Positions 3,499-57,979 of a DNA stretch of 64,000 nucleotides are shown one piece after another (within the stretch, counting starts at the first letter, position 1; every line of letters begins with the position of its first letter). Location of the stretch: contig JALBUN010000010.1 of NCBI GenBank assembly GCA_025174535.1, forward strand, positions 2,170,001 to 2,234,000. The letters are read 5' to 3'. The notes under the pieces were generated by a model that ran no database searches, was not told the origin of the DNA, and worked only from the letters and a program-made list of their open reading frames with translations. The position numbers and the translations under genes are program-made. This DNA is from Cantharellus purpuraceus (lineage: Eukaryota > Basidiomycota > Agaricomycetes > Cantharellales > Hydnaceae).

Positions 3499-3609
3499 TC
3501 GACAGGTTCACCAAACAGTCACTATTCATTCCAACGCATGACACCATCACCTCCGCCTCACTAGCTAAATTGTTCGTTCTCCACATATTCTCTAAACACG
3601 GAGTCCCAT

Positions 3610-5041
3610 TGTTTTGGAACCTGCAAAATTATGGTGTTAGGGCAAACTCTAAATCACCACAATTCCGTGAATGAACAGCTGAGAAGAATATCAAACCCTG
3701 CTGCAGCACAACTCCAGAAACGATTTAACGTTTGTACTTTGGTTACAATCCTTTGTATTGGTCAATGCAGACTATACACAGAAAGGTAATACGTTTCTTA
3801 GCAGCAAGAAATGAATAAGACTTCCAGAGTCTAGAGTTCACGGACGCTTAGGGGTCCAGATATTCCAAAAAGAGGGGAATGCACTTAGAGGCTAAAGGAA
3901 GTAGGTGGATGAATCCAACCGTCCAACCAGTGGCACTCAGAAGCGGGTAACAGCGATGTGTGAAGTAGTCTAGCAACTGCTTCACACGAGTTCAAGCTTC
4001 TAATGCTCTGCAAAGGCAGTACACACTAGTTACTTAAACAAGAGCACTAATGGCAGGACTATTGACAGACAATCTCACCCTGTAGATTCGTAGTCACGTG
4101 AGGCAGATACTACACTCACGCCCAAAGCAGGAATATCACTACCTTGAGTGCAATCAAGTACAGTTACACAACTGTAAAAGATCCTTGAACTGGTAATCAA
4201 CAGTTACTGAGATAGAGGATGACACTGTATGTCACTCTAGTCACACTGGTGTGCAGAAGATGGGTAGAATATGATGATATGTTATTCTTTCAGAGGCAGA
4301 ATGGCCTCCTTATATATTGTATTTACAGGGGCTGACTAATGCTTCTGGAATATTCTACCTATTAATAGATGGAAGCTACTGGAAGGTTGTGGAAGGTGGA
4401 AGAAAGGGGTAGAATATTCCAAGCCAATCACAGGATCTGATCACAGCACTAACACTGATCAGGAGCTGAATAATGGTTCTGGAAAGTTCTATCTAATAAT
4501 AGAAGGAAACAGCTAGAATGTTATGGAAAGGGGTAGAATATTCCAAGGCAATCACCTGATTTGATCACCCATCAGCTGATCTGATCCCTGAGCTAGGCAC
4601 TGATCAGGCAAAAAGAAGGGTGTCCACCCTGTTTTCTGCACTGGTTTGGACAGCCATGGATAGCCACATGTCATGTGATGATCTCCACGGAAAATAGTGC
4701 CCTGAGAGGCTGTGGTTGTTAAGTTACAGAATATTTATTGATCAGAGACATCTGAGCTTGAATTGAGGCCAAATGCCTGATCCAAAAGGGGAGAGCCGGC
4801 TGCGCGAAGGTTTGTGGGCGCCTATGGGTCCACAACTGTAGCACAGCAGAAATAAATGATTCTGGGCCGAGTTCTGCATGGAATATTCCCAGAAAAATAT
4901 GGAAAAATAGAGAATATTTGAATAAGTCCATTCCAGGTACAAGCATCAAATATATGCTGATATTTAGGAATGGAAAAGCAAAGAATAGCACATTGGTGCT
5001 GCATAAATGGAATTTGATAGGGAAAAGGTGATTCCCATACA
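3610..5041 (-). repeat. LTR-A solo LTR, TSD CCCAT
   Basis: A 1432-bp unit runs from TGTTTTGGAA to TTCCCATACA on this strand, i.e. TG...CA when read in reverse. It is flanked by the 5-bp duplication CCCAT at 3605-3609 and 5042-5046, inside the integrase of gypsy-1 copy 1. It has the same length as the LTR-A copy at 34062. There is no internal region, so it is a solo LTR left by recombination, or a non-autonomous unit. A 110-residue hydrophobic open frame near 4719-5051 recurs in other LTR-A copies but lies in U3. Confidence 0.9.
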
Positions 5042-6109
5042 CCCATTGCATGTCACATCCGATCGAGGCTCAGAGTTCGTGTCCTCCTTCTTCCACACAT
5101 TAGGAAAGGCTCTTGACATGAAGCTTCATTTCACCTCCAGATACCACCCTGAAGGAGACGGACAAACGGAACGAATGAATCAGTCCCTGGAACAATACCT
5201 CCGAATCTATTGTAACTATCAACAAGACAACTGGGTTGATCTACTTCCGATCACAGAGTTTGCCTACAACAACACTCCGAACGCGACTACTGGCATCTCT
5301 CCGTTTTTTGCTAATAAAGGCTATCACCCGAACATCTCTGTCCACCCTGAAAAAGAACTTGCCTCAACCAAAGCCCGCCAATTCGTAACCGACCTCGATC
5401 AACTACACCAACATCTCTGAGAAACCATCTCCGATGCCCAGAAACAATATCAAGTCTCCACAGACCGACGTCGCATTCCGGCTCCGGACCTGAAAAACAG
5501 AGACAAAGTATTCGTTAAGGCCGAACACTTCCGGACCACCCGCCCATCAAAGAAACTCTCTGAGAAATACTTAGGTCCTTATGAGGTCATTGCTCGCGCA
5601 GGCAGCAGGTCCTTCACCCTCCACCTCCTGGACCACTTCCAAGCAGTTCATCCGGTTTTCCATATATCAATGCTCGAACCCGCTACTATGAATGAGATCT
5701 CCAGTTGCATGCAACCCCCACCTCCCCCGATCATCATCGAAGGAGACAATGAATATGAGATCTCTGAGATCCTGGACTCGAAGATCGACCGTCGATACAA
5801 GTGCAAGCTCCAGTACTTAGTCAAATGGACTGGATACAAAGGCACCAATGAAGAGTCCTCATGGATCTCCATGTCCGAACTCGATCATGCATCCGAATCC
5901 GTCTCCGACTTCCACTCCACTTATCCAGACAAACCTGGCCCTCTTATGAATCTTTAAGTTTGATTACTAATGCTAATTCTATTATTTCACATCATCATTT
6001 TATTACAAGTCACAAAGGAAATTACAAGCCTGCCCAAAAAACTCCGAAGGAATCACTCCGACTCATTTGTCTCCGCTCTGAATTTATAATCATTTTCATT
6101 TTTTATTTT

Positions 6110-9100
6110 ATACATCGTTTCCTTTTTCCCTTCCCCTTATTTACCTCAGGCTCCGTCTCCGACTCATCATCACTCTCTACATCCGACACCCAATCTTTCT
6201 CATCCCCCATGTCCGAATCCTCATCCAAAGGGGCCATGAACTTCCGCAACCGACATAACTCGGCTGTCCGCCGACCCTCCAGAACCTCCTTCTGTTTTCA
6301 TCATCTTCACCAAGTCCACTAGTAACCCCTCCATCCACCGGAGATGCTCCGACTGCAGGTTAACCAGCCGGATAAGCTGGCCCACGGTACTATTGGGCGC
6401 AGAGATGTGCCCTGTACCTGCACCGGTCGTTGCCCCTTCTGATCCAACACTGCTACCCCCGGCTGCCACAGCACCTGTCTCCGTCCGCCGCTTTTTGGTC
6501 GGACGACCTTCCGATTCTTTCTCTGCCCCTCCTTGTACCACTAGTTGGGGCTTGACGCTCCGACTCTGGGGATCAAACTTTCCATCAATCCTACACCCTC
6601 CTTTCCGACCCCGACAACGATCGCAGGACCGAAGGTGGCAAGTTGGGCCGGTAGGCCACACGCACTCCACGCCCGCTGACAAGCCAGGACGCATCGAGGA
6701 TGTATATCGAACCACTCTGACAGTCCAACTCCACCAGCGTCTTTTCATATCAACCTTTAAATAGCACCGCAACTCCCTCTCCACCTCAGTCTCTAATTCT
6801 AGCCATTGATCGTCACTCGAGTTTCATCGCCATCGATCATTATCAGCTTCAATTCACACCAATCCTTTCATCATCATTCACATGGCTTCCAATTCTATTC
6901 CCCTCTCCAACATCTCTTCTAATAATACGTCACACTGGTCTCTGGACACAGAGGACTATCAAAAATATGCCGAGCTCCACGGACATGTTAAGCCACCTCC
7001 ATGTGTCAAAATACTTCCCAAACTCTTTCAACGTCCAAGATCCCCACCATGTCTCTCTTATGCCATTGGCGATCCCATATTCTTTCACAATTCCGTTGAA
7101 CCATATACATTCCTCGGCATTTCACCTCTATATCGTAACATGGATAGACGAGTTGAACGTGAGGTAGAATTTCAGTTGCCATCGCCGACCTATCCTCCCA
7201 CTTCAATCCAACTCAGGTTACATCATGTCAGGCAAAGGGACCGAATATGGAGACGTATCACTAAGACAATAAGGAGTATTTGTTGTGGATGCTGACTGAA
7301 GTCCTCATGTGACTCAGGGTCAATTTACCTTCGGAGCCGTATGGAAGATGGTATTGGTGGACATTTCTATTGTTCTTTTATATGACTCACCCCTGTTTCA
7401 TCTTTTAATTCATTCATACACGACTTACTCATCCTTGTTCTATTTTTGGTTCTTTTATTACTCATCAACCCCTATTCTTACAAAGATTACCCCTATCTGT
7501 CGTTTCATTTCTCCATGATTTCCCCATTAGTAGTTCAACTTCACATGCTTTGTCAGCTGGCTTGATCAGCATTTCTTGCATCATATCGCATCATTTGCTC
7601 CTCATATTGTGTCGTTGTGCCCTGGGGATTTGTATATAAAAGGGCACTAGTTTTCGCCTTTGGAATGAATCAACAAGTTTTCAGCCAACGTTCTAAAGTC
7701 AAAGTCCATGCTCTAAGTCTACGCTCTACGCTCCATCATCTCTACACTGAGGTAAAACACCTTGGTTCAATGATCAGATTTCCCTCCGCCACCGAGAGGT
7801 TGCTTCTCTTGAAACCAGCTTTCGTGTACCTCCCAACCGGGCTCCGCATTGTCATCCAGTCACAGAGCACGATCAGCCATCGGGACCGACCTTTTGCTCC
7901 CATCCTCATCCAACCACAGAGCACTATTCCACTTTCCTGTTACTCAGTGCTACCTCTACCCCTTGACCTGATTGATCTTTGGAGTGCTGAACAACTGCGT
8001 TACACACTGTCTGTTTGCTAGGACCATTGCACGCAGGCTTATAGGATCTATTCCTTAAGCAAACCGACACCGCATCATGACACAAGTTGCATGTTACATC
8101 GGGCCCGCCAAATGGCTCCGTTGGAGCCAGAGCCTTGGGTGGTCCGCCCCTTCTCGCTGTGGCCTCCAAATGTTCCCTCTCCTCCTCCTTGTCCTGCTGT
8201 TCTGCTGCTGCCTTCTCCATCTCGCACTTGCGAAGCTGGATCGCCGACCTAGCGACACGCAGCTCCTTCTTACAGGTCACCAAAACATGACTCTCCACCT
8301 TACACCATATGACCCTCCAATCCACCTCCCGCTTCTCCGTATCAGCACTCGGGTACGCCTTCAATGAAAAGACTGCGACATCAAGATTCTTCTTGGTGGT
8401 CGCGGCATAGAGCTCCACCCTTTTGCGAGCCTCAACTGCGGCTACCCAAGCCATCTCCTCATAACAATTTGAAGTTGGATCTGGCTCTGCATCCGTCCCA
8501 ACATCCACACCCACCTCGGGTTCCGCATTTGTGTTGAGCTCCATATTGGCATCAGGATCCACCTCCACCTCTGCCCTCTCCGCCTCCGTTGCTTCATCTT
8601 CCTCAGCCACACCCAACCCAAACAATGGCCGTACCCACGGATGTAACGGCGAGTCCTCCGCGGTGACAGTTTTCGGATGAGTTGTCTCCATCCGTGTAAT
8701 GGAAATGATGGTGACTTCAGGGGTCCCTGTCCGTATTGGCAGAGGTCTCCTGGACTGGTCGCCCCTGCCCCGGTCACCTCCTCCTCCACCTCCATGGTGG
8801 CTTCTAGCTCGTACACCTGCTCCTCCACTTCCTTCAGTCTCGTGGCCTCCATCGCAGCCGCAAGTTCCTTGACCCTGCGGGCTCTCTCAGCCTTTGCTTC
8901 CTCCTCTTTCCTTCTCCGTTCCATCTCCACCGCCTCTTTCCGCCTCTGCTCCTCGTTCTCCTTGCGTCTCCGTTCCACCTCCTCCTCCTCCTTCCGTCTC
9001 CGTTCTGCCTCCTCCTCCTCCTTCCATCTCCGTTCCACCTCCTCCTCCTCCTTCCGTCTCCGTTCTGCTTCCTCCTCCTCTTTCCGTTTCCGCTCCTCTT

Positions 9101-9173
9101 CCTCTTCCTTCTGTCGGGCCAAGAGCAACTGCTCAAGCTCGGCCACGCTCATGCTTGCCAAAGGGTTTGACAT
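6110..9173 (-). pseudogene. Gypsy-1 antisense accessory gene, copy 1 (coiled coil plus Zn2Cys6-like cluster)
   Basis: This gene runs opposite to pol, between pol and the 3' LTR. ATG at 9173-9171 opens MSNPLASMSVAELEQLLLAR. Next comes a long E/K/R coiled coil built from 33-bp units (EEEAERRRKE type, about 8900-9130), an acidic segment, then a basic region. Six cysteines read C-x2-C ... C-x12-C-x2-C-x6-C with RGRKGGCRIDGKF. The first two cysteines lie near 8085, the rest near 6600-6660, because LTR-C (6677-8069) is inserted inside the cluster. A leucine-rich segment (VGQLIRLVNLQSEHLR) and an acidic tail follow. The cysteine spacing fits a fungal binuclear zinc cluster, suggesting a DNA-binding nuclear protein; function unknown. 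Frameshifts and the insertion make this copy broken. Confidence 0.75.
6677..8069 (+). repeat. LTR-C, solo LTR-like insertion
   Basis: This 1393-bp segment begins TGACAAGCC and ends ACCGACA. CCGC flanks it on both sides (6673-6676 and 8070-8073). The same place in the full gypsy-1 copy (near 55915) is continuous, which defines the insertion. TATATAAA at 7633-7640 and the TG...CA ends suggest an LTR. A 137-codon open frame at 6882-7295 has no recognisable domain and is probably chance. No other copy is in the window. Confidence 0.6.
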
Positions 9174-9313
9174 CGTTGAGGATAAGACCTCAAGCATGCC
9201 CCTCCTTTTATATGTCTCCAGACCCCAGTATAACTCCAACTGCGCCCAACCGTCTCACCTATTCAATCCACGGACATGAGGCCTCAGGGGCTCAGCCTTA
9301 AATGGGGAGATAC

Positions 9314-9852
9314 TGTTATGACTATATTCATTAACACCCAGATCCCCGTCCGATCCACTCAGATCCCCACGCATATGAAATCTATACTCCATTTGGAAAC
9401 TGCCATCTCCATCTACCTGTCCAATTGTCACCGCTGATTCCGCCCATCCATCTCTGGTTCTGATTGATGCATCAGCATCACCATAGGAACCTGGACATCT
9501 GTCCCCATCAGACTCGGACATACTCATGTAAGGCCTTCGGCCTCAGATACCCATCACTGGAGTAATTATTATTAGATTTCAAAATATGTATTTAAGTTGC
9601 CTGACTGGGGACTTCATTCCCCAGTTTGAATATCAAATCACACCTAGTTCCTAAGTCCAATCCTAACTCTCCAAGTCGTACTCCGTCTCCAAAATCCCGG
9701 ACACTGGTATTAGTGAGGGTGCAGCACATAAGCTGAAGCCAAGTCTGTCCCGACCCCCACGACGTGCTCCGACTCTGACCCAACCTCTGACCCAACCTCC
9801 GACCCAACCTCCGACCCAATCTCCAACCCCCAATTGGACCTAGTGCATAACA
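9314..9852 (+). repeat. Gypsy-1 3' LTR of copy 1
   Basis: The 539-bp LTR begins TGTTATGACT and ends GTGCATAACA (others end GCGTAACA). A purine-rich stretch (AAATGGGGAGATA) just before it is the likely polypurine tract. Near 9770-9825 it carries a 12-bp minisatellite (GACCCAACCTCC type), the main cause of LTR length differences between copies (515-551 bp). Confidence 0.9.
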
Positions 9853-20154: not shown

Positions 20155-20487
20155 TGTTACGCACTTGGTCCGTTGGGTGGGTCGGACTTTGGGGTCAGAG
20201 TCGGAGTCGGAGTGGGTTGTGATGATCAGAACGGACTTGGCTTCAGCTTATGTGCTGTGCCTCACTAATACCGGTGTCTGAGATTTTAGAGACAGAGTAC
20301 AACTTAGTTAGTTTTGGATTGGACTTAGGACCTAGACATGATCTGATATTCAAACTGGGGAATGAAGTCTCCAGTAGTATGAGTTAAATACATATTTGAA
20401 ATCTAATAATAATTACTCCAGTGGTGAATCTCTGAGGCTGATGGCCTTACATGAGTATGGCCAAGTCCAATGGGGATGAGTGTGGTC
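20155..20487 (-). repeat. Truncated gypsy-1 LTR
   Basis: It begins TGTTACGCAC, the reverse complement of the gypsy-1 LTR end, and follows that LTR with many differences as far as about 20487 (CATGAGTATGGCC). There it jumps directly into the coiled-coil part of the antisense gene. About 50 bp of LTR and the leader of the antisense gene are missing. Confidence 0.8.
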
Positions 20488-20666
20488 AAGCTTGGGCAGT
20501 TGCTCCTGGCCTGATGGAAAGAAGAGGAGGAAGAATGGAAGCAGAAGGAGGAGGTAGAGGAGTGGAAATGGAAGGAGGAGGAGGGGGAGTGTAGATGGAA
20601 GGAGGAGGCAGAGGAGTGGAAATGGAAGGAGGAGGAGGAGGGGGAGCATAGATGGAAGGAGGAGGA
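20488..20666 (+). repeat. Expanded coiled-coil minisatellite from the gypsy-1 antisense gene
   Basis: The segment begins with the LEQLLL part of the antisense gene (GCAGTTGCTCCTGGCC) and continues as GGAGGAGG/GTGGAAATGGAA repeats, in units of roughly 30-45 bp. It is a third, deleted copy of that gene. A gypsy-2 LTR interrupts it at 20667. Confidence 0.6.
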
Positions 20667-38600: not shown

Positions 38601-40230
38601 ACTATGCACTTGCTGCGATCCTGTCCATCATCCAGAGAGATGATGGACAAGTCCATCCGATCGCTTTTCACTCGTGTACATTTATGCCCCCCGAACTGAC
38701 GTCCATGACAAAGAGCTCCTTGCCATATATGAAGCCTTCCAGATATGGAGACACTACCTTGAAGGCCCCTCCGATCCGGTGGACATCATAACTGACCACA
38801 AAAACTTGGAATACTTCTCCACAACGAAACTGCTCACCCGGAGACAGGTCTGATGGTCCAAATACCTATCTCAGTTCAATCTCATTATCCATTTCCATCC
38901 TGGTCGACTTGGAGCAAAGCCTGACGCGTTAACTAGATGCTGGGACATCTACCCTAAAGAGGGGAATAGCGACTATGCCACTGTAAACCCACACAACTTT
39001 CGTCCTGTGTTTACTAACGAGCAGCTGGCATCGTCCCTACGAGCATCCACCCTCATGACTCCCACCCTCTGAGCTGTCACCATTATGGACATCGACCAAC
39101 TCCGCTCCGACATCTGCTCATCACTCTGATCCGATCCTATTGCAGTTAAACACTTGGACAACCCTTCTGATCCAAAATGGTCACTTGACCCTGAAGGACA
39201 CCTCCGACACAACAACCGGATATACGTCCCTGACGCCAATGGTCTCTGACTCCGAGTTTTGCAGTATTATCATGATCACCTGATCTCAGGCCATTTTGGG
39301 CAAAATCGCACACAAGGATTAATCCGACGAGACTACGTATGGCCAAAAATGCGAGAATACATTCAACACTACTGTAACTCCTGCACCACGTGTATGCGCT
39401 CAAAATTGCAAAGGCACAAACCCTACGGAACGCTTAAGCAACTTCCAGTCCCAGAGCAACCATGGAACTCCATCTCCATGGATTTCATAGAGAAGCTCCC
39501 CCCATCGCTCAGATATGACACCATACTCATGATTGTCGACAGGTTCACCAAACAAACACTATTTATTCTGACGCATGACACCATCACCTCCGCCTCACTA
39601 GCTAAATTGTTCATTCTCCACGTATTCTCTAAACACAGAATCCCATCACATGTCACGTCCGATCAGGGCTCAGAGTTCGTGTCCTCCTTCTTCTGCACAT
39701 TAGGAAAGGCTCTCAACATGAAGCTTCATTTCACCTCTGGATACCATCCTGAAGGAGATGGACAAACGGAACGAATGAATCAGTCCCTGGAGCAATATCT
39801 CTGAATCTATTGTAACTATCAACAAGACAACTGGGCCGATCTACTTCCAATTGCAGAGTTTGCCTACAACAATGCTCTGAACACAACTACTGGCGTCTCT
39901 CCTGCTAATAAAGGCTATCATCCAAACATCTCCGTCCACCCTGAGAAAGAACTTGCCTCCACCAAAGCCTGCCAATTCGTAACTGACCTCGATCAACTAC
40001 ACCAACATCTCCGAGAAACCATCTCCGATGCCCAGAAACAATATCAAGTCTCCACAGACCGACGTCGCATTCCGGCTCCGGACCTGAAAAACAGAGACAA
40101 AGTATTCGTTAAGGCCGAACACTTCCGGACCACCCGCCCATTGAAGAAACTCTCTGAGAAATACTTAGGTCCTTATGAGGTCATTGCTTGTGCTGGCAGC
40201 AGGTCCTTCACCCTCCACCTCCCTGACCAC
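35642..40230 (+). pseudogene. Gypsy-1 left arm: gag-pol (decayed, 3' end missing)
   Basis: Gag starts at ATG 35674 (MPQSTANFERARTIEV) and includes a CCHC knuckle (CLFCGKPGHQAKDC near 36475). The A8-TAG junction lies at 36574-36584. Protease-like LIDSSSTHCFLD is near 36745, RT YLDDD near 38145, RNase H near 38585, integrase HHCC near 39270, and the core TSDQGSEF near 39655. It ends in the C-terminal barrel (HLPDH) at 40230, where LTR sequence begins. Chromodomain, antisense gene and 3' LTR are missing. Numerous TGA stops occur. LTR-D (37159-37461) is inserted. RT and integrase are near-mirror images of the right arm. Confidence 0.88.
37159..37461 (+). repeat. LTR-D solo LTR, TSD GAC(A/G)C
   Basis: 303 bp from TGTCAGGGTT to GTCCTCACA, flanked by GACAC (37154-37158) and GACGC (37462-37466), one CpG-type mismatch apart. 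TATAAAG occurs at 37319-37325. The other gypsy-1 copies are continuous here. Only one copy is seen. Confidence 0.85.
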
Positions 40231-41356
40231 TGTTTTGGAACCCGCAAAATTATGGTGTTAGGGCAAACTCTGAATCACCACAATTCCATGAATGAACAGC
40301 TGAGAAGAATATCAAACCCTGCTGCAGCACAACTCCAGAAACAATTTAACATTTGTACTTTGGTTACAATCCTTTGTACTGGTCAATGCAGACTATACGC
40401 AGAAAAGTAATACATTTCTTAGCAGCAAGAAATGAATAAGACTTCCAGAGTCTAGAGTTCACAGACACTTAGGGGTCCAGATATTCCGAAAAGAGGGGAA
40501 TGCACTTAGAGGCTAGAGGAAATAGGTGGATGAATCCAACCGTCCAACCAGTGGCACTCAGAAGCGGGTAACAGCAATGTGTGAAGTAGTCTAGCAACTG
40601 CTTCACACGAGTTCAAGCTTCTAATGCTCTGCAAAGGCAGTACACACTAGTAACTTAAACAAGAGCATTAATGGCAGGACTATCGACAGACAATCTCACC
40701 CTGTAGATTCGTAGTCACGTGAGGCAGATACTACACTCATGCCCAAAGCAGGAATATCACTACTTTGAGTGCAATCAAGTACAGTTACACTACTGTTTTG
40801 GAACCCGCAAAATTATGGTGTTAGGGCAAACTCTAAATCACCACAATTCCATGAATGAACAGCTGAGAAGAATATCAAACCCTACTGCAGCACAACTCCA
40901 GAAACAATTTAACATTTGTACTTTGGTTACAATCCATTGTAATGGTCAATGCAGACTATACGCAGAAAAGTAATACATTTCTTAGCAGCAAGAAATGAAT
41001 AAGACTTCCAGAGTCTAGAGTTCACAGACACTTAGGGGTCCAGATATTCCGAAAAGAGGGGAATGCACTTAGAGGCTAGAGGAAATAGGTGGATGAATCC
41101 AACCGTCCAACCAGTGGCACTCAGAAGCGGGTAACAGCAATGTGTGAAGTAGTCTAGCAACTGCTTCACACGAGTTCAAGCTTCTAATGCTCTGCAAAGG
41201 CAGTACACACTAGTAACTTAAACAAGAGCATTAATGGCAGGACTATCGACAGACAATCTCACCCTGTAGATTCGTAGTCACGTGAGGCAGATACTACACT
41301 CATGCCCAAAGCAGGAATATCACTACTTTGAGTGCAATCAAGTACAGTTACACTAC
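40231..41356 (-). repeat. Tandem duplication of 563 bp (40231-40793, 40794-41356)
   Basis: Both units run from TGTTTTGGAACCC to CAGTTACACTAC and are nearly identical. The second is a mosaic: some positions (CTACTGCAG, CCATTGTAATGG) match the adjacent LTR-B, others (GACTATACGC, CAGAAAAGT) match the first unit. Confidence 0.85.
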
Positions 41357-42809
41357 TGTTTTGGAACCCGCAAAATTATGGTGTTAGGGCAAACTCTAAA
41401 TCACCACAATTCCGTGAATGAACAGCTGAGAAGAATATCAAATCCTACTGCAGCACAACTCCAGAAACGATTTAACGTTTGTACTTTGGTTACAATCCAT
41501 TGTAATGGTCAATGCAGACGATACGCAGGAAGGTAATACGTTTCTTAGCAGTAGGGAATGAATAAGACTTCCAGAGTCTAGAGTTCACGGACGCTTAGGG
41601 GTCCAGATATTCCAAAAAGAGGGGAATGCACTTAGAGGCTAGAGGAAGTAGGTGGATGAATCCGACCGTCCAACCAGTGACACTCTGAAGCGGGTAACAG
41701 CAATGTGTGAAGTAGTCTAGCAACTGCTTCACACGAGTTCAAGATTCTAATGCTCTGCAAAGGCAGTACACACTAGTAACTTAAACAAGAGCACTAATGG
41801 CAGGACTATCGACAGACAATCTCACCCTGTAGATTCGTAGTCACGCGAGGTAGATACTACACTCACGCCCAAAGCAGGACAATCACTACTTCGAGTGCAA
41901 TCGAATACAGTTACACAACTGTAAGCGACCCTTGAACTGGACAATCAACAGTTACTGAGATATAGAGGATGACACTGTATGTCACTCTAGTCACACTGAT
42001 GTGCAAATGATGGGGTAGAAATGGTTATTTATTCAGAGGCAGAATGGGCTCCTTTTATATTGTATTTACAGGAGCTGACTAATACTACTGGAAACTTCTA
42101 CCTATTAATAGATGGAAACTACTGGAAGCTAGTGGAATATGTGAGAAGGGGGTGGAAGTTTCCTAGCCAATGAGCTGCTTGGATTTGCTCTGACTCATGG
42201 CATGAGTCATGGATGGAGTCATAGTGTGACTCAGAGCAGGAGTCATAGTATGAGTAATCACAGGAGTAATGGTATGAGTCATGGAAGGAGTCATAGCATG
42301 AGTCATGGCAGGAGTCATTGCATGAGTCACCATTACTCAAATAACTCGGTCAATACTTGGTTTCCCAGGCTGATTAGCACAGCTATGGGTAGGCATGGCT
42401 TCTATTGAACTCTCCACTGAAAATGGAGTCAGGAGGTGCAGTGGTTGCGAAGATATTGAGCATTTACTGGCAGTGGTGACCAGATTGAGTCGGAGATTGA
42501 AATGAGTCATGTGATCGAAAATGAGTCAGTTGTCCGGGTGACTCCGGCTGACTTTGAGGCTGCTGACATCTGCGGAGGTTTGTGGGTCCATGTGGGTCCC
42601 AAAACTTTGCCCAGCAGAACAATAAGTTTGTAGACTCATTTCTGCATGGAAAATTCCCGAAAAAATATGAAAAAATAAAGAATATTTGAATGGCCCTGAA
42701 TCAAGAGAAAGCAGCAGATATATGCTGACATTTTAAGGCCATCAAGTGGAATTGTACAGTTTCGGGACTTTAAACAAGATCTTTTTAAGGGAAAACCAGT
42801 TCCCATACA
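41357..42809 (-). repeat. LTR-B solo LTR, complete, TSD ACTAC
   Basis: 1453 bp, TGTTTTGGAA to TTCCCATACA on this strand, flanked by ACTAC (41352-41356 and 42810-42814), nested in LTR-A. Near-identical to 46742-48194. It carries eight TGASTCA sites in U3 (reverse strand). Confidence 0.92.
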
Positions 42810-49934: not shown

Positions 49935-50449
49935 TGTTATGACTATATTCATTAACGCCCAGATCCCCGTCCGATCCCCTCAGATCCCCGCGCACATGAA
50001 ATCTATACTCCATTTGGAAACCACCACGTCTCCATCTACCTGTCCAATTGTCACTGCCGATTCCGCCCATCTGTCTCCAGTTCCAATTGATGCATCAGCA
50101 TCACCATAGGAACCTGGACATCCATCCCCATTGGACTTGGACATACTCATGTAAGGCCGTCGGCCTCGGAGACCCATCACCGGAGTAATTATTATTAGAT
50201 TTCAAATATGTATTTAAGTTGCCCGACTGGGGACTTCATTCCCCAGTTCAAATATCAAATCACGCCTAGCTCCTAAGTCCGATCCTAACTCCCTAAGTCG
50301 TACTCCGTCTCCGAAGTCTTGGACACCGGTATTAGTGAGGGCGCAGCACATAAGCTGAAGCCAAGTCCGTTCCAACCCCCATGACGTACTCCGACTCCAA
50401 CCCGACCTCCAACCCAATCTCCAACCCCAATCGGACCAAGTGCGTAACA
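49935..50449 (+). repeat. Gypsy-1 5' LTR
   Basis: TGTTATGACT to GCGTAACA, 515 bp. It is followed directly by GTATATTCGAACTGCC, which is not a TGG-type tRNA primer site. Tf1-like chromoviruses self-prime from their own 5' end; whether that applies here is not shown. Confidence 0.93.
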
Positions 50450-50481
50450 GTATATTCGAACTGCCATACTCACTCCTACCA

Positions 50482-51597
50482 ATGCCACGATCCACCACCA
50501 ATTCCGAACATGCCCAAATCGTCGAGGTACCCACCCCCAGCATCAACACCATCCCCGAGGTCGTCGAAGAACCGACGGACCACATAGAGGCCATCAATGA
50601 AGAAGACGACACCCCACCCTCTCCAAATCTGGCACAAGCCATCTCCCTGCTCGCCAGCAGCATCCATAACCCACAAGCCCCTAAGTCCCGGACCAAGGTC
50701 CGAGAACCTGACCCATTCGATGGCTCTGATCCACGCAAGCTCCAGCCATTCTTGGTGCAATGCCGGTTGAATTTCCACGATCGCCCCGATGCATTCACAT
50801 CCGATCGGGCGAAGGTCACCTTTGCCATGTCCTATCTCAAGGGCACCGCACTGGACTACTTTGAGCCAGCGCTCATGGACGACTCCGATGACCTGATATG
50901 GTCAGAAGACTACTCCGACTTCATCTCCAAACTTCGGACCAATTTCGGTCCGTACAACCCCGAGGCCAATGCCGAGAATGAACTCAATTGACTTTGGATG
51001 AAGGAAAATCACAAGATCACAAAATACATTGTGAGTTTCCAGCAGCTAGCTCTGAAAGTCCAATGGGGCGACGCCGCACTCTGACGCCAATTTTACGTTG
51101 GACTCCCATCCCGCATCAAGGACGAGATATCACGCATTGGTAAGCCGGATAGTTTGGCTACCCTTCGCAAGCTCGCCCAATCCATCGACGCCCGTTATTG
51201 GGAACGTCAATCCAAGGTCACCCACAAAAATTTGGCTAACAACAAATCGGACAAATCATCGGACAAAACTCCAAAGTCCAACAAGGGGTCCAATAAGCGG
51301 GCCACCACCAACTCAGGCCAGAAATCAAACACTAACGCTGCCGCTTCCGGTTCCGGTCAGAACAACTCCGGCACCAGCAATAACTCCAGAGCTCGCAAGA
51401 GTACTCCGGACCTCTCCACCAAGCTGGGAAAGGACGGGAAACTTACCCAGCAGGAACGCCAGCGCCACATGGACAACAACCTCTGTCTGTTCTGTGGGAA
51501 GCCTGGTCACCAAGCCAAGGATTGCAACAAGGCAACCTCGTCCGCAGCAAAGGCGAAGGGCCACACCGCCAATGCCACGACGGACCAAAAAAAATAG
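50482..51597 (+). pseudogene. Gypsy-1 gag, full-length copy
   Basis: The structural capsid protein. ATG at 50482 (MPRSTTNSEHAQIVEVPTP). The capsid region has FDGSDPRKLQPFLVQCRLNF near 50719 (shown from F to F) and FAMSYLKGTALDYFEPAL near 50820. A Ser/Asn/Lys-rich linker leads to a CCHC zinc knuckle (CLFCGKPGHQAKDC near 51485). It ends TDQKK at the TAG 51595-51597 right after eight As. TGA at 50989-50991 and 51082-51084 interrupt it; the second is CGA in the left arm. Gag binds element RNA and forms the particle. Confidence 0.9.
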
Positions 51598-51652
51598 TAA
51601 GCAGTCCTATAGCCTCCGTACGGGCTGAGGGCTGCATTGGTACTCCCCGTAC
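51587..51652 (+). promoter_or_regulatory. Candidate gag-pol -1 frameshift site with downstream stem
   Basis: A8 (51587-51594) directly precedes the gag TAG; the -1 frame continues into pol (KKIVSSPIASVRAEG). A perfect 7-bp inverted repeat GTACGGG (51618-51624) / CCCGTAC (51646-51652) follows. The A8 and TAG are kept in the left arm (36574-36584) and right arm (46481-46491, reverse). The 23-nt spacer is longer than typical for -1 sites. Confidence 0.65.
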
Positions 51653-53816
51653 AACAGACGAGGTCCGCCTGAACGCATCCGCTCTTTCCCACTCCAACTC
51701 CATTCCCGATACCACTATTCAAGCATTAATTGACTCCAGTTCTACTCACTGTTTCCTCGATTCCTCTTTTTCCAATTTACATAAACTCCATACATACACC
51801 ATAACTCCGATACCACTCCGATTATTTGATGGCACTACTAATACTGTTATTTCATGAGCTATAGATCTGTCTATCCGTTTTTCTGTCGGAGAAATCCAGA
51901 ACCTTACATTCTATGTTACTCCGCTTGACTCCAGCTGTTCTGTGGTTCTCGGCCATAACTGGCTCACCCGCTACAATCCGTTGATTGACTGGGCATTGGG
52001 CCATATCACATTCCATTCTCCAGTACAGGCTGTGTCATCCCCGACGTCACCAGCAACTCTAGGTGCGAAATTATCTTCCCCCTCCACTGACCCCGCTCCG
52101 AAGATACTCCATCTACCCCTCCATTTATATCAATGGTGGACGCTATGGTCTTCGCCAGACTAAGCAAGCTGGACGGTTCTCACACATTCCAGGTCCACCT
52201 CTCCGACCCGATATTCCTCGCTGCTCGTTCTGCCCGATCCACTCCACCGGACCTCTCTATGGTTCCCAAGGAGTATCATGAGTTCACCAACGTGTTCAGC
52301 AAGTCTAAAGCCGACTCCCTAGCAGAACACCGACCATATGATCTCAAGATCGAACTGGATGACAACTACACCCCTCTGCTTGGCCCTATCTACTCGCTAT
52401 CACAAAAAGAGCTACTGGCTCTCTGGACATTCATAGACAAGAACTTGGCCACGGGCTTCATCTGCCCATCCCTATCTCCTCATGGAGCTCCGGTCCTATT
52501 TGTCTGCAAAAAGGACGGATCACTCCGTCTATGCGTCGACTTCCGTGGGCTCAACAAGATCACCAAGAAAGACTGATACCCCATACCCCGCACCGCAGAC
52601 CTACTCGAGAGTCCTCGAAAGGCTAAGATCTACTCCAAAATAGATCTCCGACACGCCTACCATCTAGTCTGCATCCGAGAAGGCGACGAATGGAAAACGA
52701 CTTTCCGCACACGATATGGATCTTTCGAGTGGTGTGTCATGCCCTTCGGACTAACCAATGCTCCGGCCGCCTTCCAGAGGTTCATGAATGATACCTTCAC
52801 CGACCTCCTTGACGTGACCATCCTCGTTTACTTAGACGACATTCTGGTATATTTGGACAACGAAGAAGAACATCGGACACATGTCCGAGAGGTACTCCGA
52901 CGTCTCCGAAAGCATGGCCTCTTCGCCCACACTGACAAATGTGAATTCCACTCTGACTTGGTCGAATATCTAGGCTATATCCTCTCCCCAGCAGGATTAA
53001 CAATGTCCGACGACAAAATCAAAGCCATACAGGAATGGCCAGAACCCTGGAAAGTCAAGGATGTACAGTCCTTCCTCGGGTTCGCCAACTTCTACCGCCG
53101 CTTCATTCACGGCTACTCCAATATCACTGTTCTGCTCACCCGACTCACTAGGAAGGGTATCCAATGGAATTTCACTGACGAATGTAGACAGAGTTTTGAG
53201 ACCTTGAAAAAGGCCTTTACTTCCGCTCCGATACTGACTCATTGGGTTCCAGACGTTCCCATCCTATTAGAGACCAACGCCTCTGACTATGCACTTGCTG
53301 CGATCCTGTCCATCATCTCTCCGGACGATGGACAAGTCCATCCGATCGCTTTTCACTCACGTACATTTACGCCCCCCGAACTGACGTCCATGACAAAGAG
53401 CTCCTTGCCATATATGAAGCCTTCCAGATATGGAGACACTACCTTGAAGGTCCCTCTGATCCGGTGGACGTCATAACTGACCACAAGAACTTGGAATACT
53501 TCTCCACAATGAAACTGCTCACCCGGAGACAGGTCCGATGGTCCAAATACCTATCTCAGTTCAATCTCATTATCCGTTTCCGTCCAGGTCGACTCAGAGC
53601 AAAGCCTGACGCACTAACTAGACGCTGGGACATCTACCCTAAAGAGGGGAATAGCGACTATGCCACTGTAAACCCACACAACTTTCGTCCTGTGTTTACT
53701 AACGAGCAGCTGGCATCGTCCCTATTAGCATCCACCCTCATGACTCCCACTCTCCGAGCTGTCACCATTATGGACATTGACCAACTCCATTCTGACATCC
53801 GCTCATCACTCTGATC
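51594..53816 (+). pseudogene. Gypsy-1 pol: protease, reverse transcriptase, RNase H
   Basis: In the -1 frame relative to gag. Aspartic protease with ALIDSSSTHCFLD near 51721 (the usual DSG/DTG reads DSS). RT from about 52253, with [22 protein letters not shown] before a TGA at 52574, and catalytic YLDD at 52829-52840. RNase H lies near 53270 ([12 protein letters not shown], with the first acidic D changed to N as compared with copy 1's ETDTSDY) and is frameshifted by a 7-bp deletion at about 53381 that the left arm shares. The next frame runs [10 protein letters not shown] to the TGA at 53812. Confidence 0.9.
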
Positions 53817-53943
53817 CGATCCTGTTGCAGTTAAACACTTGGACAACCCTTCTGATCCGAAATGGTCACTTGACCCCGAAGGACACCTCCGACACAACAA
53901 CCGGATATACATCCCTGACGCCAATGGCCTCTGACTCCGAGTT

Positions 53944-55213
53944 TTGCAGTATTATCATGATCACCCAATCTCCGGCCACTTCGGGCAAAATCGCACACAA
54001 GGATTAATCCGACAAGACTATGTATGGCCAAAAATGCAGGAATACATTCAACACTACTGTAACTCCTGCACCACGTGTATGCGCTCAAAATTGCAAAGGC
54101 ACAAACCCTACGGAACGCTCAAACAACTTCCAATCCCAGAGCAACCATGGAACTCCATCTCCATGGACTTCATAGAGAAGCTCCCCCCATCGCTCGGATA
54201 TGACACCATACTCGTGATTGTCGACAGGTTCACCAAACAGTCACTATTCATTCCGACGCATGACACCATCACCTCCGCCTCGCTAGCTAAATTGTTCATT
54301 CTCCACGTATTCTCTAAACACGGAGTCCCATCACATGTCCTCCTTCTTCCGCACATTAGGAAAGGCTCTCAACATGAAGCTCCATTTCACCTCCGGATAC
54401 CACCCTGAAGGAGACGGACAAATGGAACGAATGAATCAGTCCCTGGAGCAATATCTCTGAATCTATTGTAACTATCAACAAGACAACTGGGCTGATCTAC
54501 TTCCGATTGCAGAGTTTGCCTACAACAACGCTCCAAACGTGACTACCAGCATCTCTCCATTCTTTGCTAATAAAGGCTACCATCTGAACATCTCCGTCCA
54601 CCCCGAGAAAGAACTTGCCTCCACCAAAGCCCGCCAATTCGTAACCGACCTCAATCAACTACACCAACATCTCTGAGAGACCATCTCCGATGCTCAGAAA
54701 CAATATCAAGTCTCCACAGACCGACACCGCATTCCAGCTCCGGACCTGCAAATCGGAGACAAAGTATTCGTTAAGGCCGAACACTTCCGGACCACCCACC
54801 CATTGAAGAAACTCTCCGAGAAATACTTAGGTCCTTATGAGATCATTGCTCGCGCGGGCAGCAGGTCTTTCACCCTCCGCCTCCCAGACCACTTCCGAGC
54901 AGTTCATCCGGTCTTCCATATATCAATGCTCGAACCCGCTACCACAAACGAGATCTCCGGTCGCACGCAACCTCCACCTCCCCCGATCATCATTGAAGGA
55001 GATAATGAATATGAGATATCCGAGATCCTGGACTCGAAGATTGACCGTCAATACAAGTGCAAGCTCCAGTACTTAGTCAAATGGACTGGGTACGAAGGCA
55101 CCGACGAAGAGTCTTCATGGATCTCTGCATCCGAACTCGATCACGCATCCGAATCCGTCTCCGATTTTCACTCCGCTTATCCAGACAAACCTGGCCCTCT
55201 TATGAATCTTTAA
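53944..55213 (+). pseudogene. Gypsy-1 integrase with chromodomain, full-length copy
   Basis: HHCC domain (HDHPISGHF ... CNSCTTCMRSK, 53953-54090). The core begins ISMDFIEKL. At about 54340 a 29-bp deletion between TGT repeats removes the segment that encodes TSDQGSEF, including the second catalytic aspartate, and shifts the frame. Further TGA codons lie at 54458 and 54674, both CGA elsewhere. The barrel (YLGPYEIIARAG) is near 54826, and the chromodomain at about 55010-55170 (EYEISEILDSKI, LQYLVKWTGYEG, DEESSWI). The frame ends at 55213. Cannot be active as it stands. Confidence 0.92.
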
Positions 55214-55361
55214 GTTCGATTACTAATGCTAATTCTATTATTTCGCATCACCATATTATTACAAGTCAAGGGAAATTACCAGCCTGCTCAAAAAGCTCCG
55301 AAGGAATCACTCCACCTCATTCTTCTCCGTTCCAAAATTGATAATCATTTTCATTTTTATT

Positions 55362-57323
55362 TTATACATTGCGTTTCCTCTTCCCCTTTCCCTTATCTAC
55401 CTCAGGCTCCGTCTCCAACTCCTCATCACTCTCTACATCCGACACCCAATCCTTCTCATCTCCCATGTCTGAATCCTCGTCCAATGGGGCCATGAATTTC
55501 CACAACCGACGTAACTCAGCTGTCCGACGACCCTCCAGAACCTCCTTCTGTTTCATCATCCTCACCAAGTCTACCAACAACCCCTCTGTCCGCCGAAGGT
55601 GCTCCGACTGTAGGTTAACCAGCCGGATAAGCTGGCCCACAGTGCTATTGGGCGCTGAAACGCGCCCCGTACCTGCACTGGTCGTTGCCCCTTCCGATCC
55701 AACGCCGCTACCCCCGGCTGCCATGTCCACCTCTTTTTGGTCGGACGACCCTCCGATTCCTTCTCTGCCCCTCCTTGTACCACTAATCGGGGCTTGACGC
55801 TCCGACTCCAGGGATCGAACTTCCCATCGATCCTACACCCTCCTTTCCGACCCCGACAACAATCGCAGGACCAAAGTCGGCGAGTTGGGCCGGTAGGCCA
55901 CACGCACTCCACACCCGCATCACGACATAAGTCGCAAGTTACGCCGGGTCCACCAAATGGCTCTGTTGGAGCCAGAGCCTTGGGTGGTCTGCCCCTTCTC
56001 GCTGCGGCCTCCAAGCGTTCCCTCTCCTCCTTGTCCTGCTGTTCTGCCGCCGCCTTCTCCATCTCGCGCTTCCGAAGCTGAATCGCCGACCTCACGACAC
56101 GCAGCTCCTTCTTATGGGTCACCAACACACGACTCTCCGCCTTGCACCATATGACCCTCCGGTCCGCCTCTCGCTTCTCCGTATCAGCACTCAGGTACGC
56201 CTTCAGGGAAAAGACCGTGACGTCAAGGTTCTTCTTAGACGCTTGTTCGGAATCATGTCAGTATACAATATTCTGATGTATAGGAGATATACATCAGGAT
56301 TTCAATGATACATAAAGCCAGGGAGTTACAATTTGGATATCTTAAAAGATTTTGGATGTGTGAAATTTTCATAAATATAAACATATATTCTATATTTTAA
56401 TAAACTTTAAAAGATGAGATATTTGGTTGAGATGAACATAATCATTTACATGGATATAATAGGAATGTATGTATTAATATAATTGGTATTATATAGGGTA
56501 TTTAGATATACAAATGCCAGGTGGGGATTAAAGATAGTTCAAATTATGTTACAAGTATTGTATAAGAAAGAATCAATGATATTTGGATGTTCCTTCAAGA
56601 GAGTTGCCACCACTAAATGGGGAAAAAACAATTATTTTTGAGAATTATGCCAAAATATCACAATATGTTTTAATCTAGTATATTGTGTAAAATTTGAGAA
56701 TCATGTTGAAATATGAAAATAAGTTTGAATTGAAGTGTATTGTATAAAATTTGAGGAAAATAGGTTGTATATACGTATTTGTTGTATTTCTGAACAAGCG
56801 TCTTAGTGGTAGCAGCATAGAGCTCCACTCTTTTGCGAGCCTCGACTGCAGCTACCCAAGCCATCTCCTCATAAGAATTCGAAGTAGGATCCGGCTCCAC
56901 ATCAGTCCCAACATCCATGCCCGCCTCGGGCTCCACAGTTGCATCGAGCTCCACATTGGCATCGGGATCCGCTTCCACCTCCACCCTCTCCGTCTCCGCC
57001 GCATCATCTTCCTCAGCTGCCCCTAACTCAAATAAGGGCCGTGCCCGCAGGCGTAACGGCGAGTCCTCCGCAGTGACAATCCTCGAATGAGTCGCCTCTG
57101 TCCGTGTAACGGAGATGATGGTGACTTCCGGGGTCCCTGGCCGTATTGGCACACTCGGACTTCCTGGGTGGCTGGTTTCCCCTGCCCGGGTCACCTCCTC
57201 CTTCCGTCTCCGTTCTGCTTCCTCCTCCTCTTTCTGTTTCTGCTCCTCTTCCTCTTCCTTCCGTCGGGCCAAGAGCAACTGCTCCAGCTCGGCCATGCTC
57301 ATGCTTGCCAAAGGGTTTGACAT
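55362..57323 (-). pseudogene. Gypsy-1 antisense accessory gene, copy 2 (coiled coil plus Zn2Cys6-like cluster)
   Basis: Opposite strand to pol, ending 149 bp past the pol stop. ATG at 57323 (MSNPLASMSMAELEQLLLAR); a shorter E/K/R coil than copy 1 (about two 33-bp units); an acidic middle (EADPDANVELDATVEPEAG); EEMAWVAAVEARKRVELYAAT, where a TIR element (56238-56802) interrupts. Then VTHKKELRVVRSAIQLRKRE, a second charged helix, and the cysteine cluster near 55840-55920: C-x2-C-x6-C-x12-C-x2-C-x6-C, ending GGCRIDGKF. The C-terminus has VGQLIRLVNLQSEHLRRTEG and an acidic/basic tail (VDKGKGKRKRNV). Six cysteines with Zn(II)2Cys6 spacing plus a helix suggest a DNA-binding regulator. No known transposon protein is recognised with certainty. 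Confidence 0.78.
56238..56802 (+). mobile_element. TIR element (MITE), copy 3, TSD TTA
   Basis: 565 bp, ends GACGCTTGTTCGGAA and TTCTGAACAAGCGTC, flanked by TTA (56235-56237 and 56803-56805). Inserted in the antisense gene of gypsy-1. Non-coding. The best-preserved termini of the three copies. Confidence 0.9.
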
Positions 57324-57464
57324 CGTTGAGGATAAGACCTCAATCATGCCCCTCCTTTTATATGTCTCCAGACCCCCAGTATAACTCCAACCGCGCCCAA
57401 TCATCTCACCTATTCAATCCACGGACATGAGGCCTCAGGGGCTCGGCCTTAAATGGAGAGATAC

Positions 57465-57979
57465 TGTTATGACTATATTCATTAATGCCCAGATCCCTGT
57501 CTGATCCCCTCAGATCCCCGCACACATGAAATCTATACTCCATTTGGAAACCGCTACGTCTCCATTTACCTGTCTGATTGTCACCACCGATTCCGCCCAT
57601 CCGTCTCCAGTTCCAATTGATGCATCAGCATCACCATAGGAACCCAGACATCCGTCCCCGTTGGACTCGGACATACTCATGTAAGGCCGTCGGCCTTGGA
57701 GACCCATCACCGGAGTAATTATTATTAGATTTCAAATATGTATTTAAGTTGCCCAACTGGGGACTTCATTCCCCAGTTCGAATATCAAATCACACCTAGC
57801 TCCTAAGTCCAATCCTAACTCCCTAAGTCGTACTCTGTCTCCGAAGTCTTGGACACCGGTATTAGTGAGGGCGCAGCACATAAGCTGAAGCCAAGTCCGT
57901 TCCAACCCCCACGACGTACTCCGACTCCAACCCGACCTCCAACCCAATCTCCGACCCCAATCGGACTGAGTGCGTAACA
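57465..57979 (+). repeat. Gypsy-1 3' LTR
   Basis: 515 bp, the same length as the 5' LTR. The purine-rich AAATGGAGAGATA just upstream is the likely polypurine tract. Confidence 0.93.

Follow-up and report, generated by a model that had tools for sequence, protein, structure and literature searches.

A six-cysteine antisense gene in a chromodomain Ty3 retrotransposon of Cantharellus purpuraceus

A long open frame lies on the strand opposite to pol, between the end of pol and the 3' LTR, in a retrotransposon of the fungus Cantharellus purpuraceus. The element is part of a window of 64,000 nucleotides (the whole stretch of DNA that was analysed) from a genome of 40.15 Mb in 50 contigs. Is this antisense frame a gene that the element maintains, and if so, what might its protein do?

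The element and its opposite-strand gene

The features of the window are collected in Table 1. The two LTRs of the focal element, each 515 bp long, run from TGTTA to TAACA and differ at 27 positions, always by a transition and in 17 cases by one of the CpG type. The element is flanked by ACTTG and GCTTG, possibly the decayed remains of a 5-bp target duplication. The full set of pol domains was pooled from the ORFs of three copies: the focal copy itself contributes the SH3-like part and the chromodomain, L010 a reverse transcriptase (RVT_1, 9e-38) and RNase H, and L025 RNase H, Integrase_H2C2, rve and Chromo (9.5e-7). With reverse transcriptase, RNase H, integrase and a C-terminal chromodomain in pol, and paired LTRs on either side, the element is a chromovirus, as the first-pass annotation had called it. 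In the copy L011, a Gag-like frame lies 3' of a family LTR; it has a match resembling the Ty3 capsid as well as a zinc knuckle (zf-CCHC, 21.9 bits vs 20.8). L011 and L032 are near-identical copies located about 7.4 kb apart on the same contig, likely a tandem or segmental duplication. CpG-type transitions are common among the differences between family copies as well as between LTRs, and their frequency suggests methylation of cytosines or a process akin to RIP. Elsewhere in the window, a repeat with 563-bp spacing is present in three tandem copies at 40226-41651 and is related to 3605-3904.

Table 1. Features of the window (positions are those of the 64,000-nucleotide stretch)
Feature	Position	Strand	Remarks
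LTR retrotransposon, about 8 kb	49935-57979		chromodomain Ty3 element
5' LTR (TGTTA...TAACA)	49935..50449	+	94.8% identity to 3' LTR
pol C-terminal end, SH3-like part and chromodomain	54803..55213	+	SH3_Tf2-1 7e-15, Chromo 4e-9
Antisense gene	55362..57323	-	ATG 57323, stop 55362; interval from pol end to 3' LTR
Six-cysteine stretch C-x2-C-x6-C-x12-C-x2-C-x6-C	55835..55936	-	part of the focal antisense gene
MITE-like insert inside antisense gene, 563 bp	56239..56801	.	short terminal inverted repeats, CTAAG target duplication
TATAAAA, putative promoter	57356..57362	-	39 bp upstream of antisense ATG
3' LTR	57465..57979	+	pairs with 5' LTR 49935..50449
Second antisense-gene copy	6108..9197	-	two pieces, about 1.39 kb between
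3' LTR adjoining second copy	9314..9805	+	end approximate
Remnant	20476..20666	+	coil start only, 76.5% identity

The opposite-strand gene is present where it had been claimed, between pol and the 3' LTR, and the MSNPLASM start, the E/K/R coil and the six-cysteine spacing attributed to it are all found in the focal frame. The focal copy itself is disrupted twice, by the 563-bp insert and, near 55.73 kb, by a frameshift. The insert is AT-rich, its terminal inverted repeats are alike at 14 of the 20 end bases, and stretches related to it, 565-575 bp long, occur at three other places in the genome. Two further features had been annotated in the window. The copy placed at 6110-9173 exists, but it is split; the remnant placed at 20488-20666 matches the coil start, but its frame reads SPMGMSVVKLGQLLLA and not MSNPLASM. 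Intact versions are found in other members of the family, as single-exon frames of 577 aa (L019), 592 aa (L022) and 585 aa (L028), lengths that are counted from an ATG eight codons upstream of MSNPLASM. The length of the N-terminal coil differs among L017, L019, L022 and L028 by whole repeat units, KEEEEAERRR being one of them. When the genome was searched with a 465-aa query, 46 of the 90 copies matched in a single row (best candidates) had no stop within the matched stretch; the stops in the remaining single-row copies are TGA or TAG, with one TAA.

The association of the gene with pol was followed by searching the genome with the pol end (at least 150 places) and with a 140-aa stretch of the antisense gene (at least 150 places). 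Merging the 465-aa and 140-aa searches gives at least 168 distinct places listed for the gene. On the 140-aa list, the gene lies within 3 kb downstream of pol and on the opposite strand in at least 74 of the 150 listed pol ends; the count rises to at least 89 of 150 when 17 further places are added, which were selected by hand from other genome searches and do not represent those lists in full. The gene falls in two offset ranges in 86 of the 89 gene-bearing pol ends because different stretches of the gene were matched, and a same-strand neighbour was seen at one pol end. The other 61 of the 150 listed pol ends had no listed partner. Eight of the first nine of these were fetched, and in seven of the eight the gene is there, whole or in pieces. 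In L044 (1-604), pol reaches the LTR after 88 bp, and the antisense gene is missing together with the usual pre-LTR sequence. From the 89 listed ends and the seven of eight inspected, the antisense gene looks like a normal component of the family. In place, prevalence and constraint it matches the antisense additional ORFs called aORF-3R: it runs against pol in the interval before the 3' LTR, occurs in most copies examined, and is constrained like the other genes of the element, yet less than pol; a conserved TATAAAA is its putative promoter.

Selection on the antisense frame

Selection was measured on an alignment of 430 codons, excluding the repeat-rich coil, with counts over 24 copies. The focal copy, the segmental duplicate L011 and partial matches (L004, L025 and the window copies) were kept out of the antisense-gene counts. 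Changes were classed as CpG-type or other, and by the number of copies carrying them, a change in three or more copies being called shared. Shared changes have mostly gone through replication whereas private changes mostly arose after insertion; the contrast between them therefore separates selection from decay.

Synonymous changes are in excess among the shared non-CpG changes of the 24 copies, both for transitions (S 34/327, N 10/657; w 0.15, p 1e-9) and for transversions (S 11/522, N 5/2054; w 0.12, p 4e-5), which is the purifying selection that the first-pass annotation had proposed to look for. The private changes of the 20 closest copies are near-neutral, with w of 1.04 for transitions and 0.76 for transversions. 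In the same 20 copies, the ratio of nonsynonymous to synonymous changes is 50/21 for the private class vs 9/29 for the shared class (Fisher p 6e-6). The private-change count omits four divergent copies (the second copy of L018, L029, L030 and L036), and the contrast depends on this omission, since private changes counted over all 24 copies depart from neutrality (w 0.46 and 0.38). In our own reading, the lower private values with 24 copies are as expected if the long branches of the divergent copies also bear selected changes.

CpG-type changes behave differently from the rest: shared CpG changes have a w of 1.00, and the shared nonsynonymous variants comprise 143 CpG vs 15 non-CpG. Many of the amino-acid differences between copies are thus CpG decay without constraint. 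Of the 144 cysteine cells in the alignment (six positions in 24 copies), 143 hold a cysteine, so that the cysteines proved conserved among copies. As a control, the 3' part of pol gave a w of 0.04 for shared transitions. The pol control retained both L011 and L032 plus all divergent copies, so that the private changes of pol (w 0.33, 0.43) do not make a clean baseline.

A sense-strand gene was also considered as the selected frame, and was rejected: of 181 possible changes silent in the antisense frame only, 13 are seen as shared variants, vs 1 of 322 silent in the sense frame only. The sense frame compared here, which has its third positions in register with those of the antisense frame, looks mildly constrained (0.32, 0.58).

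These counts show that the antisense frame is a real protein gene, under purifying selection while the element replicates. Splitting changes both into shared and private and into CpG and non-CpG offers a way to part selection in the replication phase from decay after insertion.

Relatives, six-cysteine region and candidate promoter

Residues 235-585, used as the query of a protein search, retrieved a single metagenome protein (E 3e-49, 39% identity over 81%). The onward search from this protein brought the relatives to 16 including itself, 15 of the 16 having been reached through the first protein alone. Their identity to the genome family is 34-43%, apart from the chimaeric-looking P0019 at 29%. 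Relatives in which the start is present begin with a common MS..-..NMS-ADIEKLL followed by a charged coil, and most relatives have in common a helical middle, the cysteines, a basic patch and a coil at the C-terminus. The complete six-cysteine spacing occurs in 12 of the 16; in the other four, a cysteine is lost or the region is absent. The relatives are known as proteins only; their genes may lie in retroelements, as those of the genome family do. A profile search of proteins gave two matches, both among the relatives already found, and a pattern search of viral contigs gave six matches with no relative among them.

The cysteines of Zn2Cys6 proteins are spaced C-x2-C-x6-C-x(5-12)-C-x2-C-x(6-8)-C, and those of the antisense protein satisfy this spacing. 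The zinc-cluster architecture claimed for the region at the outset is therefore upheld as far as spacing goes, but formal membership in the family is not: the best Zn_clus score is 9.3 bits against a cut-off of 21. Zn_clus matched three of 15 members, in each case with E>1 only, and a Pfam search with four short cysteine fragments gave no match to it. In the genome as a whole, 27 Zn_clus places were found, vs none in 14 control genomes, in keeping with a fungal host, and none of the 27 is within 3 kb of the listed antisense-gene copies. Both half-sites of the antisense protein are closer to the first than to the second half-site of GAL4 (in 14/15 and 15/15 proteins). The idea that the half-sites are reversed relative to GAL4 was discarded; the swapped order scored better in three of the 15 proteins only. 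Taken together, the motif and its conservation make it likely that the six-cysteine module binds zinc.

AlphaFold2 was run on P0007 with 13 sequences and no metal. The model contains long helices at 10-78, 114-147, 153-222 and 353-411, which flank a disordered cysteine-rich middle on either side. The cysteine region of this metal-free model is unfolded, with a pLDDT of about 30 and a mean of 58.6 for the whole protein. The fold search returned generic long helices alone, with no Foldseek match at E<=0.001 and no zinc-cluster protein among the matches listed, an absence that carries no weight against a cluster; searches of the PDB by sequence and of NCBIfam yielded nothing useful.

A candidate promoter precedes the antisense gene. 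TATAAAA is present in 29 of the 30 listed rows, and its distance to the ATG is 39 bp in 27 of the 30. In L018, a divergent copy at 6291-8058 whose antisense gene is 82% identical, the LTR directly adjoins the TATA box and the 39-bp spacing is retained. The metagenome relatives P0008 and P0018 extend upstream of the start and have Tyr-Lys exactly 13 codons ahead of Met. At the protein level, this is a hint that the dipeptide sits where the genome copies have TATAAAA.

Proposed role and comparison with known systems

The opposite-strand gene is best explained as an accessory gene that a chromodomain Ty3/gypsy retrotransposon carries convergent with pol; a TATA promoter of its own, on the side of the 3' LTR, would drive its transcription. 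Its protein would enter the nucleus by means of the basic patch KKRR/KRRR and dimerise through the helical coils. The six-cysteine module would bind zinc, and then DNA or chromatin, and the protein would presumably act back on the element that encodes it, regulating its expression, its copy number or its integration. An extra gene on the opposite strand, with six cysteines, that selection has preserved is a probable self-encoded regulator of the element; regulatory roles have been suggested for the antisense genes of plant elements and are established for those of HTLV. Taken whole, from selected accessory gene to a nuclear, dimeric, zinc-binding self-regulator of its own element, the proposal stands at about an even chance. 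A more specific version is offered tentatively, and is more doubtful than the first: the proteins may constitute a new family of element-encoded six-cysteine-zinc DNA-binding proteins in one fungal chromovirus lineage, which control the element's own transcription or target its integration and are expressed from a convergent promoter.

The protein could instead be a coiled-coil, nucleic-acid-binding factor of the particle or the pre-integration complex, and not a DNA-binding regulator. Highly charged coils around a cysteine-rich basic middle also fit RNA or capsid binding, and the selection seen is that expected of any protein required for replication. However, the Gag-like frame 3' of the family LTR in L011 already carries a zinc knuckle, and separate antisense expression would fit a regulator better than a bulk structural protein. 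A particle factor is considered unlikely.

Somewhat less likely again is the suggestion of the first-pass annotation that the gene is a captured host Zn2Cys6 transcription factor. GAL4-type proteins have a zinc cluster followed by a coiled coil, and the antisense protein is predicted to have the same order; its cysteine spacing is compatible with Zn2Cys6, and the scores of both half-sites toward the first half-site of GAL4 are also in keeping with such an origin. The Zn_clus score below the cut-off speaks against it. No host relative was found outside the element, in searches that could not separate one from element copies.

That the antisense RNA, and not a protein, is the functional product, pairing with the gag-pol transcript and either feeding RNA silencing or dampening expression, appears improbable. 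The layout convergent with pol would suit such an RNA, and the idea has been raised before (PMC7264820). Nevertheless, the amino acids of the antisense frame are selected, the other five frames provide no explanation, and a function in the RNA only would give no synonymous excess; an antisense RNA as sole function is thus disfavoured. Finally, although E/K/R-rich sequence opens several frames, with long overlapping ones on both strands, a chance open frame devoid of function is scarcely credible and is refuted by the shared vs private contrast and the frame test, and relatives that keep the layout at mostly 34-43% identity, together with purifying selection, likewise make the gene more than chance.

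The self-encoded regulator proposed here has counterparts among known elements. Zhao et al., in 2011, are said to have described Boty-like elements of Botrytis cinerea with an antisense gene, brtn. Several plant elements, namely Grande, RIRE2, Retand and PvRetro13, have antisense genes in the interval from pol to the 3' LTR, and beyond plants the same is described for Boty of Botrytis and Sclerotinia (PMC7264820). The antisense gene brtn is reported for Boty of Botrytis (PMC7264820, PMC8365987), and Boty-like elements carry a CHROMO domain (PMC4227169). Fungal chromoviruses with an antisense gene are therefore not new, and the first-pass annotation put the novelty too high. By published description, Boty with brtn is like the present element in being a fungal Ty3 element that has a CHROMO domain and, past pol and ahead of the 3' LTR, an extra antisense gene (PMC4227169, PMC7264820).

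In maize, gene23 of Grande is antisense between pol and the 3' LTR, has its own upstream promoter and encodes a nuclear product (PMC7264820). By description, the present gene has the same position; Grande differs in being a plant element. Retand, with the antisense TRP28 (PF04195), differs in belonging to a non-chromovirus lineage of plants. PF04195 had no match at E<=10 in P0001-P0004, P0007, P0008, P0010 and P0011, scanned one by one, and is absent among the 25 families listed for 15 members. An 'add. ORF' of unknown function appears in a figure legend of another study (PMC2864245). The antisense proteins HBZ and APH-2 of HTLV are nuclear proteins of a provirus (PMC11963269); the likeness is in function only, an analogy for which homology is not claimed. 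The GAL4-type Zn2Cys6 proteins (PF00172) share the six-cysteine spacing, a basic second half-site and a downstream helical coil with the antisense protein, which differs in its profile score, far under the cut-off, and in that both its half-sites resemble the first of GAL4.

A literature search, covering titles and abstract openings among the matches listed, with subscription papers mostly outside its reach, returned no zinc-cluster antisense gene of a retrotransposon. What the antisense accessory genes of LTR retrotransposons do is still unsettled (PMC7264820). Here the gene is under selection at the amino-acid level, some of its copies are intact, and both a promoter and a discrete domain can be proposed for it, which makes the question testable in a fungus, outside plants. 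The six-cysteine antisense gene is a new form of the known antisense accessory genes, and one for which there is clear evidence that the protein matters.
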